DNA of 23,966 bases, taken from positions 1 through 23,966 of the IMG/VR virus record IMGVR_UViG_3300042309_000756; one strand, given 5' to 3'. Below, piece after piece: positions 3,884-19,671 of this stretch. Every line of letters begins with the position of its first letter. The stretch's first letter is position 1. Source of the stretch: a virus. The notes under the pieces were generated by a model, which was not told the DNA's origin, searched no databases, and saw nothing but the letters and a program-made list of their open reading frames with translations. The position numbers were made by a program, and so were the translations under genes.

Positions 3884-3972
3884 TAGATAATCAGGGGCAT
3901 TAAAGGTCCAAACTTTAAGTAAGTCCCACACCCTCCATGCCTCTTAATAATGCACAAACAGGAGGGTCTCTT

Positions 3973-4046
<74 letters not shown>

Positions 4047-8553: not shown

Positions 8554-8610
8554 CGCCAGTTGGACTGGTGGCACAGTAAAGTCCCTTTCTGCTCCCTGAT
8601 GCCCTATAAT
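8554..8610 (+). promoter_or_regulatory. Hairpin and TATAAT promoter module E
   Basis: CGCCAG (8554-8559) pairs with CTGGTG (8565-8570) after the helicase stop. Then GTAAAGTCCC, 10 variable bases, CTGATGCCC and TATAAT (8605-8610), the same layout as module C. The first ATG of the next frame (8609) overlaps the -10 itself. Confidence 0.6.
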
Positions 8611-8632
8611 GATGGAATCAAACAAAAGTCAG

Positions 8633-9130
8633 ATGACTCCAGAGCAAAAGTTTCAGCAACTCTTTGAAGAAATGTATCAACTTTGTGAGGAGCAAGGTTG
8701 GGGAGATCCTTTCAGTTATGCTCGTTCCCGTGAGATTCATCTTGCTAGTATTCTTGGTCACAAAGTAGCAGATACTTACTCTGGTGCTGATGCTATAGAT
8801 GATGATGGTGAATGTGAATATAAATCTACGATTGCCGAATCTATCAATGGAACGTATAATGGAATTAGTGTTCAAGATAGTTGGGAAGAGCAAGAACGTT
8901 ATTTGATTGAAGATAAACTTGGCAAGTATTCTAATCATTATATTGCCCGTTATGAAGGTGGAAAAGTCGCAGAGGTTTGGAAACTTTCTTCTGATGATAT
9001 TTTGATGATTCTTCTCCCCAAACTGAAAAAGGATTGGGGACGTAAAATTAACGGCAAACATAAAGATCCCCGACTCTCTGGTTCTCTGACAAAGAAAGAA
9101 ATCTATCAATACGGAACTAAAATTGTATGA
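8633..9130 (+). CDS. PD-(D/E)XK nuclease-like protein, possible restriction endonuclease (165 aa)
   Basis: The core reads as a type II restriction-like nuclease: a helix with E34 (ARSREIHLASILGH), then SGADAIDDDGECEYKST with D53 and E62-Y-K64 as the metal-binding D...ExK, then a region with VQDSWEEQERYLIEDKLGKY and a basic C-terminal part (PKLKKDWGRKINGKHKDPRL) suited to DNA contact. The open frame begins at ATG 8609/8612, but these are inside or at the edge of the -10, so ATG 8633 is chosen; the longer form would add eight residues. It overlaps the methyltransferase gene as ATGA, like a restriction-modification pair. The nuclease fold is inferred from motif pattern; it could instead be a nuclease for host DNA degradation. 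Confidence 0.6.
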   Translation: MTPEQKFQQLFEEMYQLCEEQGWGDPFSYARSREIHLASILGHKVADTYSGADAIDDDGECEYKSTIAESINGTYNGISVQDSWEEQERYLIEDKLGKYSNHYIARYEGGKVAEVWKLSSDDILMILLPKLKKDWGRKINGKHKDPRLSGSLTKKEIYQYGTKIV

Positions 9131-9651
9131 CTTTAGATAGTGGAAAACTAATGTATTCCGCAGGAAATAATGATGAATGTTATACTCCTGCTTATGGTGT
9201 TAAACCCATTCTCAAGTACATTACTAAAGATGCAAAAGTTTGGTGCCCATTTGATACTAAAGAGAGTGAGTTTGTAAAGCAAATTGGATCACAAAATCTT
9301 GTGATCTCAACTCACATTTCAACAGGACAAGATTTTTTAACTTACAATCCTGACTTTGATTGGGATGTAATTGTATCCAATCCACCATTCACAAACAAAC
9401 GTAAGTTCTTCGAGAGAGCATTGTCATTTGGCAAACCATTTGCACTCATTATGACTAACACTTGGTTGAATGATAGTGCTCCAAAACAGTTGTTTAAGGA
9501 TAAGGATCTTCAACTTCTTATGTTTGATAAAAGAATGAAGTTTAATAGTCCTGATGGGAGAGCAAACGATAAGATCACTTTTAGTAGCAGTTATTATTGT
9601 TGGAACTTTCTTCCTAAACAAATCATTATGGAAGAACTTAAAGTGAAGTGA
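9127..9651 (+). CDS. Adenine-specific DNA methyltransferase-like protein (174 aa)
   Basis: Belongs to a small phage group of N6-adenine methyltransferases. NDECYTPAYGVKPILKYI (15-32) is the usual start, VWCPFDTKESEF (38-49) takes the place of the SAM-binding motif I, GQDF (67-70) follows, and SNPPF (84-88) is the catalytic motif IV. The segment FALIMTNTWLNDSAPKQLF also matches what I recall of phage members of about this length, so the gene looks complete. There is no obvious target-recognition domain, so its specificity is unknown. It overlaps the nuclease-like gene (ATGA) and may protect phage DNA from it or from host enzymes. A strong terminator follows. Confidence 0.82.
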   Translation: MTLDSGKLMYSAGNNDECYTPAYGVKPILKYITKDAKVWCPFDTKESEFVKQIGSQNLVISTHISTGQDFLTYNPDFDWDVIVSNPPFTNKRKFFERALSFGKPFALIMTNTWLNDSAPKQLFKDKDLQLLMFDKRMKFNSPDGRANDKITFSSSYYCWNFLPKQIIMEELKVK

Positions 9652-13848: not shown

Positions 13849-13932
13849 ATGAAAAAGAAAACTAAAATCGAACTGCTATCTAAAGCAATTAACGGTAAAG
13901 AACTACTCATTATTCTGAATTCATTCAAATGA
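13849..13932 (+). CDS. Tiny basic peptide (27 aa)
   Basis: ATG 13849 lies just after the previous stop and TGA 13930-13932 overlaps the next ATG. MKKKTKIELLSKAINGKELL is followed by IILNSFK. The linked starts and stops on both sides suggest it is translated, but a 27-codon frame is weak evidence alone. Confidence 0.45.
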   Translation: MKKKTKIELLSKAINGKELLIILNSFK

Positions 13933-14141
13933 AATCAAACAAAGTATTTCAAATTGAATTGTGTAAAGAGGATGCACAAAGAATACTTAATTCACTTGAA
14001 TTACTGAAACGACAGACTAAACAACAAGTTAATGATTGTAAGGATGATGAAACAAAGACTATTGCTTGGTTAGAATGGTCTTACATCAGTGAGTTACATT
14101 ATGATCTTGATTGTAAGTTTAGATTAGACACCTGGAATTGA
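13929..14141 (+). CDS. Small helical protein (70 aa)
   Basis: ATGA overlap with the peptide upstream. MKSNKVFQIELCKEDAQRIL is followed by a long helix (NSLELLKRQTKQQVNDCKDD) and an aromatic-acidic region (AWLEWSYISELHYDLDCKF). Likely a helical hairpin. Last gene before the origin-like region, so transcription from promoter L may run into that region. Confidence 0.68.
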   Translation: MKSNKVFQIELCKEDAQRILNSLELLKRQTKQQVNDCKDDETKTIAWLEWSYISELHYDLDCKFRLDTWN

Positions 14142-14143
14142 TA

Positions 14144-14374
14144 CCCCTATATCGTCCATTTCAGTCTTGATTGATTATAGTTTTCCACAGGGTTGCGGAA
14201 AAGATTGTTTTGATTTCCACATTTTTTTATTGTTAAATTTATTATGATGCGTGAATTGTATGTTTGTGTTGTTTGATTGTTAATGTCTTCTCTTATTGTT
14301 ATCTTAGCGAACACAATAACATATAAACAGTGATTTGTCAAGGGTTCACAGGACACCCCCTATATCGTCCATTT
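14144..14374. repeat. 18-nt direct repeat pair
   Basis: CCCCTATATCGTCCATTT occurs at 14144-14161 and again at 14357-14374, 213 bp apart, framing the first DnaA-box pair. A partial third copy of the inner part (TCGTCCAT) occurs near 14710. Possibly protein-binding iterons. Confidence 0.75.
14181..14221. repeat. DnaA-box palindrome 1 plus single box
   Basis: TTTTCCACA (14181-14189), GGGT, then TGCGGAAAA (14194-14202): two head-to-head boxes, the second with one mismatch. A further ATTTCCACA lies at 14213-14221, next to the T-rich tract. Confidence 0.65.
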
Positions 14375-14427
14375 TCACGTTTACAATACAACAGTCGTTT
14401 CGTGATACTGTAAATCACTGAGAGGCA

Positions 14428-14447
14428 TCTACAATCGTCTACAATCG
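14428..14447. repeat. Tandem 10-nt repeat
   Basis: TCTACAATCG is present twice in direct succession (14428-14437 and 14438-14447). Short, but surrounded by other TCGT-containing motifs. Confidence 0.55.
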
Positions 14448-14573
14448 TGTTTAATTTCGTATTAGGTATATCTGATCGTTTCGTTGTATTCTCGTGCCTT
14501 CCGGGGGATTTTTAATCGTTCGGTGTTAATCAATTCGTTATATGTGCCACTATGTGATACTAACAGTCACTCA

Positions 14574-14649
14574 TAGTTTTCCACAGGGTTGTGGAAAAAG
14601 TACAATAGTTTTCCACAGGGTTGTGGAAAAAGTGTTAAAGTTTTCCACA
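14574..14649. repeat. Tandem array of DnaA-box palindromes (32-bp period)
   Basis: Boxes TTTTCCACA start at 14577, 14609 and 14641, exactly 32 bp apart. The first two are each followed by GGGT and the inverted box TGTGGAAAA (ending 14598 and 14630); the third has only the first half. TTTTCCACA is the cyanobacterial form of the DnaA box. This makes five perfect boxes in 73 bp, with 32 bp close to three helical turns, so all bound proteins would face the same side. Confidence 0.75.
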
Positions 14650-14660
14650 GGTTATTATAC

Positions 14661-14689
14661 TTGACAGTCTTTGATTGTTCGTGTATAAT
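14661..14689 (+). promoter_or_regulatory. Perfect-consensus sigma70 promoter
   Basis: TTGACA (14661-14666), 17-nt spacer, TATAAT (14684-14689): 12 of 12 consensus positions at the optimal spacing, 11 bp after the last DnaA box. It would transcribe across the AT-rich region toward 14823. It may make a gene transcript, a replication primer or both, and could be repressed by bound DnaA. Confidence 0.85.
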
Positions 14690-14822
14690 TATAGGCAGTG
14701 ATTCCGATTCGTCCATCGACAGTTATATCGGGGGTTGTTGTATTATATTATATTGTAATGCGGTTATAAAAAAAGGGTCCTATCCAACCTACAGATGTGA
14801 CAAATCGAGTGAGTGATATCAA

Positions 14823-14999
14823 ATGCTAAAAAAAATTTTTTGGGGTCAAAAAATGCCTGTAAGGTTGCTCTATGAGAGGGGGTGGGGAACAAGTATAAGT
14901 CCTTTAGATGAGATCGAATATATTGTAAGTTGTCTGAGAGAAACCTTAAATATATTAAAATCCCATATTCGTAAAAAAAATTCCCAGGGTAAAAAATGA
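14823..14999 (+). CDS. Small hypothetical protein (58 aa)
   Basis: ATG 14823 or in-frame ATG 14853 (MPVRLLYERGWG); the first ten codons overlie an A8T6 tract (14828-14841), so the later start is possible. The body reads RLLYERGWGTSISPLDEIEY, then VSCLRETLNILKSHIRKKNS. It is probably a helical basic protein. ATGA overlap with the next gene supports it. First gene after the origin-like region. Confidence 0.6.
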   Translation: MLKKIFWGQKMPVRLLYERGWGTSISPLDEIEYIVSCLRETLNILKSHIRKKNSQGKK

Positions 15000-17389: not shown

Positions 17390-17797
17390 GTGCCAGTAGA
17401 ATCTGCAGTATCAAGATATTTTAAAGATATCAGTTTGTCTTTTAAAAGACATCCTGTAACCAATGATATTGCTGTGATTACAAATGAAGATGCAATTAAA
17501 AGATCTGTCATCAATCTAGTTCGTACTAGAATTGGTGAGAGATTTTTTAATTCTCTTCTGGGATCAAATGTGGAATCAATGTTATTTGAACTTGCAGATT
17601 CTGGAATTGTCGATCCAATCACAGAAGAGATTAGTACTACAATTAATAACTTCGAACCACGAGTTAATTTAAGGCAAGTAAATGTTGATTTAAGGGCAGA
17701 CCAAAATGAGATGGAGGTTTTCATCATTTATGATATTGTTGGACTTGCTGTTCCTACACAAAATATAACCTTCGTATTACAACCAACAAGATACTAA
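17390..17797 (+). CDS. gp25: Baseplate wedge protein gp25 (135 aa)
   Basis: Homologue of T4 gp25, which with gp6 and gp53 forms the inner wedge core around the baseplate hub and helps start the sheath. Family features: DISLSFKRHPVTNDIAVITN near the start, DAIKRSVINLVRTRIGERFF (34-53) and the end region NEMEVFIIYDIVGLAVPTQN. Length is close to T4 gp25 (132). The start is GTG 17390 (MPVESAVSRYF); no ATG is available. Arginine is mostly AGA. Followed by gp6 as taATG, the T4 order. Confidence 0.92.
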   Translation: MPVESAVSRYFKDISLSFKRHPVTNDIAVITNEDAIKRSVINLVRTRIGERFFNSLLGSNVESMLFELADSGIVDPITEEISTTINNFEPRVNLRQVNVDLRADQNEMEVFIIYDIVGLAVPTQNITFVLQPTRY

Positions 17798-19671
17798 TGG
17801 CATTTACTCAATTTACAAATCTAGACTTTGATCTAGTCAAAACATCCATTAAAGATTATCTTAGGTCAAATAGCACCTTTACAGATTTTGACTTTGAAGG
17901 TTCTAATTTATCTGTCCTGATTGATATTCTTGCCTACAACACTTATATTACTGCATACAACAGTAATATGGTAGCAAATGAATCCTTCTTGGATAGTGCC
18001 ACACTTCGAGAGAATGTAGTTTCTTTGGCAAGAAACATTGGATTTGTGCCTTTATCTAGAAGAGCAGCAAAGGCAAATGTCTCAATGTTAGCATCTGGAC
18101 TAGAAAATACTGATTTAAAGACTGCTACACTCAAGGCAGGAATTGTTTGTACTGGAAATCAGAGAAATACTTCATACATTTTCTCAATTCCTGAAGATAT
18201 TACGGTTGGTATTGATGATGGGGAAGCATTTTTAAGTGAAATTGACATCTATCAGGGCACATTTTTAACAAAAACCTTCACAGTTGATAATTCTCAACCA
18301 AATCAGAAGTATATTTTACCAAATCCATACATTGATACCTCAACAATTCGTGTAAAAGTTGCGGTAAATGGTACAACAGAGCAATATTCTTACGTAGATA
18401 ACATAATTGGCATCAATTCTCAATCACAAATCTTCTTGGTTCAGGAAATTTCTGACGAAAAGTATGAAATTTTCTTTGGAGATGGTATTTTTGGCAAAAA
18501 ACCTGAGAATGGAAGTGTCATTACAGTAAGTTATATCACTACAGATGGAAAAGATGGCAATGGTGCCTCAAATTTCACATTCTCGGGCACACTAGTTGGG
18601 GAAGATTCATCAAATTTAAGTGGAAATGTCGGTTCAGTCATCACGAATTCGGCAGCAGAGAACGGAGATAACATCCAACCTACTGAATCTGTACGTTATT
18701 ATGCTCCAAGACTGTATGCATCGCAGTATAGAGCAGTAACAGCAAATGATTACGAGGCACTTTTACCTTCTATATTCCCAAATGTAGAATCTGTGACTGC
18801 TTATGGGGGAGAAGAACTCACTCCACCAGAATATGGAACAGTATATTTGGCAGTTAAACCAAAAAATTCTGATTATTTGTCAGAATTTACAAAACAATCA
18901 ATCTTAAATTCATTAAAACAATATAGTGTAGCAGGAATTAACGTCAGATTTACTGATATCAATGTACTATACGTAGAATTGGATTCTACAGTTTATTATA
19001 ATTCAAATTTAGTGAATTCTGTTAGTGATCTGGAATCGCAAGTTTATACATCACTAGATTCTTACTCAAATTCTTCAGATTTGAATAGATTTGGTGGAAG
19101 ATTTAAGTATAGTAAGGCATTGAGATCAATAGATGCTACAAATGATGCTATTACGTCAAACATTACTAGAGTTATAATTAGAAGAAATATTGGTATTATC
19201 AAGAACCCAACTAATTATGAAATTTGCTTTGAAAATAGATTTAATGTTTCACCAAGTGGATACAATATAAGATCTACTGGGTTTAAAATTCAAGGAAATT
19301 CTAAGACACTTTATATTTCAGACACTCCAAAGTCTGATTTAAAAACTGGAACTTTATTCTTATTCTCTATCGAAAATAATAAGGTTGTTATTGAGACAAC
19401 TTCTGTTGGTACAGTAGATTATATGACTGGTGAAATACGTATAGATAATATAAATGTAAGTTCTACATCTGTTGAAAATGACATTATTCAAATTGAGGCA
19501 ACTCCTTACTCCAACGATATTATTGCTAGAAAATCAGTATATTTAAAACTTGATGTTGGAAGTAGCAAAATTTCACTTGTGAAGGACATCATTTCATCTG
19601 GTGAGAATTCGTCTGGAAGTAGATTTAACCCCGAATCAAGTTATACAACAGAGTCAAAAATAAGAAACTAA
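17797..19671 (+). CDS. gp6: Baseplate wedge protein gp6 (624 aa)
   Basis: Homologue of T4 gp6 (660 residues), the dimer-forming core of the wedge that makes the continuous inner ring of the baseplate. The N-terminal part MAFTQFTNLDFDLVKTSIKD with IDILAYNTYITAYNSNMVAN (46-65) is typical of gp6/J-type baseplate proteins, as is the following SLARNIGFVPLSRRAAKANV. A middle region (VRYYAPRLYASQYRAVTAND, then YEALLPSIFPNVESVTAYGG) also matches. Joined to gp25 by taATG and followed at once by the large tail gene. Confidence 0.92.
   Translation: MAFTQFTNLDFDLVKTSIKDYLRSNSTFTDFDFEGSNLSVLIDILAYNTYITAYNSNMVANESFLDSATLRENVVSLARNIGFVPLSRRAAKANVSMLASGLENTDLKTATLKAGIVCTGNQRNTSYIFSIPEDITVGIDDGEAFLSEIDIYQGTFLTKTFTVDNSQPNQKYILPNPYIDTSTIRVKVAVNGTTEQYSYVDNIIGINSQSQIFLVQEISDEKYEIFFGDGIFGKKPENGSVITVSYITTDGKDGNGASNFTFSGTLVGEDSSNLSGNVGSVITNSAAENGDNIQPTESVRYYAPRLYASQYRAVTANDYEALLPSIFPNVESVTAYGGEELTPPEYGTVYLAVKPKNSDYLSEFTKQSILNSLKQYSVAGINVRFTDINVLYVELDSTVYYNSNLVNSVSDLESQVYTSLDSYSNSSDLNRFGGRFKYSKALRSIDATNDAITSNITRVIIRRNIGIIKNPTNYEICFENRFNVSPSGYNIRSTGFKIQGNSKTLYISDTPKSDLKTGTLFLFSIENNKVVIETTSVGTVDYMTGEIRIDNINVSSTSVENDIIQIEATPYSNDIIARKSVYLKLDVGSSKISLVKDIISSGENSSGSRFNPESSYTTESKIRN

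Follow-up and report, generated by a model that had tools for sequence, protein, structure and literature searches.

A conserved array of DnaA boxes upstream of gene 25 as a candidate replication origin of T4-like cyanophages

Plasmid and phage origins can carry the DnaA boxes of their host, as do P1 oriR, pSC101 and others; P1 and pSC101 also have an initiator of their own and iterons, and neither is T4-like. Outside origins, datA is a chromosomal locus at which DnaA is titrated with the assistance of IHF. In some cyanobacteria DnaA is reportedly dispensable. The published cyanobacterial DnaA box is the 9-mer TTTTCCACA (PMC4674748, PMC2275245), which is the box of Synechococcus, Anabaena and Cyanothece, and in vitro DnaA domain IV binds paired TTTTCCACA boxes, apparently cooperatively (PMC4674748).

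Replication of phage T4 starts from R-loops and D-loops (recombination), and a review of T4 replication makes no mention of DnaA (PMC3016281). The initial annotation of the locus described here, which had T4 starting by R-loops and recombination without DnaA, agrees with that account. The same review describes T4 oriF and oriG as a promoter with a downstream unwinding element and R-loop priming, and oriE apparently uses an early-mode promoter (PMC3016281). For the Pseudomonas phage PseuGes_254, an origin with host DnaA boxes has been proposed from a single Ori-Finder prediction (PMC11512268). Among T4-like cyanophages, a single theta origin was predicted for Syn9, as Weigele 2007 is cited in PMC2984593. 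Beyond that prediction, we found no mapped replication origin for any T4-like cyanophage in the literature searched, which lay mostly outside subscription papers and held no published account of a DnaA-box cluster in cyanophages. What would be new in the locus reported below is thus a DnaA-box element, as read from its sequence, in phages for which no use of such an element is known.

The DnaA-box array in the window

The window, meaning the whole stretch of 23,966 bp that was analysed, is assigned to a T4-like cyanophage (Kyanoviridae) by its gene 25–gene 6 baseplate module and by its nearest relatives, which are Kyanoviridae. The most similar gene 25 sequences among phage records are those of T4-like cyanophages. 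The element lies about 2.6–3.2 kb upstream of gene 25, in the sole plus-strand stretch of at least 250 bp that has no open reading frame (ORF) of at least 45 amino acids, the area of a 3'-open gene excepted; with that exception, its description as the only long non-coding stretch holds. A scan of the window placed eight TTTTCCACA-type boxes within 14181–14649, six of them perfect, starting at 14181(+), 14577(+), 14590(-), 14609(+), 14622(-) and 14641(+), and two with one mismatch, at 14194(-) (TTTTCCGCA) and 14213(+) (ATTTCCACA). All eight had been reported in the initial annotation, as had a consensus promoter, which we place at 14661–14689, and both reports proved correct. The features of the locus and its anchors are as follows.

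14142–14822, no strand: intergenic region with the whole element, between the stop of the ORF at 13929–14141 and the start of the ORF at 14823–14999
14144–14161, plus strand: 18-bp direct repeat CCCCTATATCGTCCATTT, copy 1 (perfect repeat)
14181–14202, no strand: left inverted DnaA-box pair, TTTTCCACA at 14181–14189(+) and TTTTCCGCA at 14194–14202(-), with a 4-nt gap and 1 mismatch to the pair pattern
14213–14221, plus strand: variant DnaA box ATTTCCACA
14255–14283, minus strand: second leftward promoter-like site, TTAACA-17-TACAAT
14313–14341, minus strand: leftward sigma70-type promoter, TTGACA-17-TATTGT, with TG ahead of the -10; counterpart in most near relatives
14357–14374, plus strand: 18-bp direct repeat CCCCTATATCGTCCATTT, copy 2 (perfect repeat)
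14577–14598, no strand: inverted DnaA-box pair 1 of a 32-bp tandem (14577–14585 plus, 14590–14598 minus)
14609–14630, no strand: inverted DnaA-box pair 2 of the 32-bp tandem (14609–14617 plus, 14622–14630 minus)
14641–14649, plus strand: perfect DnaA box, third half-unit of the 32-bp tandem
14661–14689, plus strand: rightward sigma70-type promoter, perfect, TTGACA-17-TATAAT, starting 12 bp past the last box
14823–14999, plus strand: first downstream ORF, 58 amino acids, without Pfam match, kept only in near relatives and P-TIM68
17390–17797, plus strand: gene 25 (baseplate wedge), synteny anchor
17797–19671, plus strand: gene 6 (baseplate wedge), second anchor

Clustering of this kind is not expected by chance. 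In 400 dinucleotide shuffles the window held a mean of 0.69 exact boxes and a maximum of 4, against the 6 observed, and no 500 bp of shuffled sequence held more than 2, against 6. There is no further perfect TTTTCCACA in the remainder of the 23,966 bp. With one mismatch allowed, the 16 boxes in the window are not above chance (13.85 expected), and thus the signal lies in the perfect, clustered boxes. Inverted pairs of the form TTTTCCACA-N4-TGTGGAAAA take in 6 of the 8 boxes, one pair being imperfect, and leave only the boxes at 14213 and 14641 unpaired. Among the loci compared, the CCCCTATATCGTCCATTT repeat is common to L053, L021/L168 and L112 only.

With up to two mismatches allowed, the element has four times the promoter density of the DNA outside it (2.96 versus 0.71 per kb), and the rightward promoter has the sigma70 -35 of the early type, unlike the MotA-type middle promoter of T4 oriF/oriG-type origins. 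The AT-rich tracts that had been noted proved weak: by duplex stability, 14200–14290 ranks only in the least stable 6–23% of the window, the DNA around 14740, downstream of the promoter, reaches only the least stable 14%, and no strong unwinding element was seen in the window. Elsewhere in the window, an abiF RNA family match (RF03085, 50.9 bits) at 3931–3967(+) lies just upstream of a tRNA gene (3973–4046), and adjoining genes at 8609–9651(+), which match PvuII endonuclease (weakly) and a DNA methyltransferase (phrog_799), are possibly a phage-borne restriction-modification pair.

Conservation among cyanophages and the boxes of their hosts

The exact inverted pair occurs at no fewer than 119 loci (at least 119) in IMG/VR, compared to 3 for a composition-matched control palindrome. 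With the proteins of complete Kyanoviridae as reference, 99 of the 119 loci had at least two Kyanoviridae-like proteins among the matches listed. To avoid selection on the motif itself, we used gene 25 as an anchor, which gave 80 IMG/VR loci. In these near relatives, the density of perfect boxes was 2.34 per kb in the bin 4–3 kb upstream of the anchor and 1.34 per kb in the 3–2 kb bin, 162 boxes in these two 1-kb bins together, and every other 1-kb bin had at most 0.31 per kb.

We also sought the highest-scoring 600-bp box window genome-wide in complete genomes of 12 Kyanoviridae from distant genera, which are related and so are not independent cases. In 10 of the 12 it fell 1.6–7.7 kb upstream of gene 25 (positions in kb: Syn9 -6.1, DSL-LC03 -7.7, S-RIM32 -5.5, P-TIM68 -2.1, S-PM2 -7.6, S-RIM12 -4.8, DSL-LC02 -4.8, S-SZBM1 -7.3, ACG-2014d -5.9 and Syn19 -1.6); the whole-genome window scan found no cluster in S-CAM9 and S-RSM4. 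ACG-2014g, S-CAM8 and S-CAM1 likewise have perfect boxes paired closely upstream of gene 25, and the long gap of S-BM3 holds a single perfect box. No exact-box cluster was found in ACG-2014f, P-SSM2 or P-HM1, nor in the non-cyanophage RB49. A cluster may hold up to 8 perfect boxes, and many isolates keep just two or three exact ones. Most of the related viruses that we examined thus have a similar array at the corresponding place on the gene map; across genera the spacing and surroundings change, and the position and the box sequence stay. The count in related cyanophages that had been suggested at the outset thus revealed a cluster kept at one genomic position, and the boxes are not equally frequent elsewhere, in the window or in these relatives, which favours the DnaA idea. 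In the S-PM2 record (AJ630128), the box group at 19177–19333 overlaps annotated tRNA-Asn and tRNA-Leu genes; several neighbouring tRNAs overlap coding sequences, and the tRNA coordinates of this record look doubtful.

Boxes are helically phased. In the gene-25-anchored set and the isolates, 81 of the 92 neighbour spacings of at most 60 bp are 11–14 or 19–24 bp, which corresponds to roughly one or two turns of the helix. A fixed order is seen in one clade (box(+), 78–79 bp, box(-), 21–22 bp, box(-), 11–12 bp, box(-), and on), in which a leftward promoter block that hardly varies separates the left boxes from the array. In loci L134–L169, for example L143, the near-invariant GTGATCTTGGCC...TATCACA...TGTCAA contains the leftward promoter, and conservation of the first transcribed bases of this block suggests a short RNA or an additional binding site. 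Other related loci retain the boxes but alter their orientation and spacing (same-strand, 11–12 and 20–22 bp), which indicates that hairpin pairing is not the conserved feature. A structured RNA was ruled out, given that the region has no Rfam match and that relatives keep the boxes and lose the pairing.

Promoters accompany the boxes. A strong rightward promoter follows about 10–170 bp past the last box in most loci, most near relatives have a leftward one within the array or next to it, and the order of boxes and then a strong rightward promoter recurs in other genera (Syn9, S-RIM12, ACG-2014d, Syn19 and P-TIM68). The first gene downstream is kept within clades and differs between genera; the 58-amino-acid ORF has one more match, in S-PM2, 5.8 kb away from the S-PM2 cluster. 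This variation rules out control of one conserved gene and implies that what is conserved is a cis-acting DNA element.

In one near relative (L130), whose sequence has 94.6% identity with the window rightward of 14786, the left boxes are degenerate and the place of the right array, about 3.3 kb upstream of gene 25 in this relative, is taken by a GIY-YIG-like ORF. The array is therefore not universally needed, and its replacement is tolerated. The GIY-YIG-like frame is of homing endonuclease type, and homing may have targeted the origin-like site. When window positions 13938–14822 are compared with this relative, the alignment to the left of the element extends over just 187 bp, at 76% identity; on this alignment, the element coincides with a recombination boundary.

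The likely host family was picked by psbA similarity, and we infer that the family sampled is the Cyanobiaceae (26 dnaN loci, 101 genomes). A family without boxes was dropped as a host control, as its centre genome has no psbA match and it probably comprises non-photosynthetic cyanobacterial relatives. The 26 dnaN loci hold 22 perfect boxes, all within 600 bp upstream of dnaN (median one, maximum five), with spacings of 20–22 and 12–13 bp prominent. These boxes, the published ones (PMC4674748, PMC2275245) and the conserved position of the cluster support the initial identification of TTTTCCACA as the cyanobacterial DnaA box. The 101 host-family genomes have single boxes and lack the N4 inverted pair throughout; the phage arrangement is thus its own, and a copy of the host oriC is ruled out. 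One dnaN locus (L514, genome G323) has five exact boxes with spacings of 12, 22, 70 and 12 bp in some order, close to the phage pattern, and its lineage is a candidate host. The DnaA C-terminal (DNA-binding) domain is encoded in none of 22 phage records, which rules out a phage-encoded DnaA in these and means that any DnaA acting here would be that of the host.

Possible roles of the array

On balance, we lean towards reading the array as a cis-acting DnaA-binding element that most likely serves T4-like cyanophages as an origin of replication or as their main early origin. This reading is preferred because it best fits the fixed locus, the phased boxes and the divergent promoters. As in oriC-type origins, several host-consensus DnaA boxes stand in one non-coding region, and they are helically phased as in the host oriC. 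The initial annotation had looked to a change of skew as a sign of an origin, and here the result counts against one: none of the 10 genomes carrying the cluster has a GC-skew switch at it, and GC and AT skew, whether raw, coding-strand only or detrended, show no switch, in a test that is weak for an origin since nearly all genes are on one strand and T4-type replication turns recombination-driven. The missing switch, together with the modest AT-richness and the genomes that lack boxes, argues against a universal, sole origin.

If the array is an origin, host DnaA would bind the phased TTTTCCACA boxes cooperatively, as their identity and spacing suggest. The DnaA complex and divergent early transcription by host RNA polymerase, started at the leftward and rightward promoters, would then open the DNA, and the T4-type phage replisome would load at the array. 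DnaA-aided melting may add to, or replace, the transcript-primed R-loop start known from T4. More tentatively, and with somewhat more doubt than belief, we propose that T4-type cyanophages in general have a host-DnaA-dependent origin that is early, DnaA-melted, promoter-flanked and upstream of gene 25, supplements or replaces R-loop origins and is kept across many genera.

Alternatively, the array could be a decoy comparable to datA, which soaks up host DnaA and stops initiation on the host chromosome without being a start site. This is credible if unlikely. The phage clusters often exceed the host oriC in perfect boxes, with up to eight where the loci near host dnaN have a median of one and at most five, the sites would multiply with phage copy number, and neither a strong unwinding element nor a skew switch was seen. 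Counter to this, the many isolates with only two or three exact boxes would be poor at titration, and a decoy gives no reason for one map position or for coupling to divergent promoters. That coupling could instead mean that DnaA acts as a transcription factor on divergent early promoters, matching early transcription to the replication state of the host, with no origin role. Such regulation would account for the strong rightward promoter so soon past the last box in most loci and for the leftward one at the array in most near relatives. We regard it as distinctly unlikely, given that the first downstream gene varies between genera, that the leftward promoter reads against the genes to its left, and that the box number and multi-box phasing go beyond the needs of a simple operator.

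A last alternative, and a very improbable one, is that the likeness to the DnaA box arose by convergence and that the inverted pairs are bound by a protein of the phage or act as hairpins in DNA or RNA. In its favour, the pair TTTTCCACA-N4-TGTGGAAAA could form a 9-bp hairpin and is absent from the 101 host-family genomes; yet relatives keep the boxes and change their orientation and spacing, the nine bases are those of the host DnaA box with the same helical phasing, and no Rfam family was found in the region. As far as its sequence can tell, the array is probably the site, or the means, by which these viruses exploit the replication starter of their host, as T4 is not known to do.

T4-like cyanophages are among the most abundant viruses in the ocean. 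A short, conserved element that is addressed to a host protein and has a fixed position on the map tells precisely where to look. It would make the host initiator part of how phage replication begins, or of how host replication is shut off, which lies outside the T4 model, and would supply a simple sequence mark for origins in contigs of uncultured cyanophages.

Comparison with known systems

The array resembles the cyanobacterial oriC (S. elongatus, Anabaena and Cyanothece; beside dnaN) in having several boxes of the same 9-mer, TTTTCCACA, in non-coding DNA with 12–13 and 20–22-bp phasing. In contrast to that oriC, it belongs to a lytic phage and is not beside dnaN, its boxes are tighter and more perfect, and it has the N4 inverted pair and no GC-skew minimum. 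With the T4 origins oriF/ori(uvsY), oriG and oriE it shares a non-coding element, an outward-reading promoter and a T4-type genome. The T4 map also places ori(uvsY) close to gene 25, and in RB49 uvsY adjoins gene 25. Unlike oriF and oriG, the array has DnaA boxes, and DnaA is absent from the T4 review (PMC3016281).

Like P1 oriR and pSC101, the phage genome is a foreign replicon that carries host DnaA boxes. Like datA, the array is a DnaA-box cluster outside the chromosome origin, and it differs in being non-chromosomal. The prediction for Syn9, one main origin in a T4-like cyanophage, is similar to what we propose for the array, and the box group of Syn9 lies 5.7 kb upstream of its gene 25.
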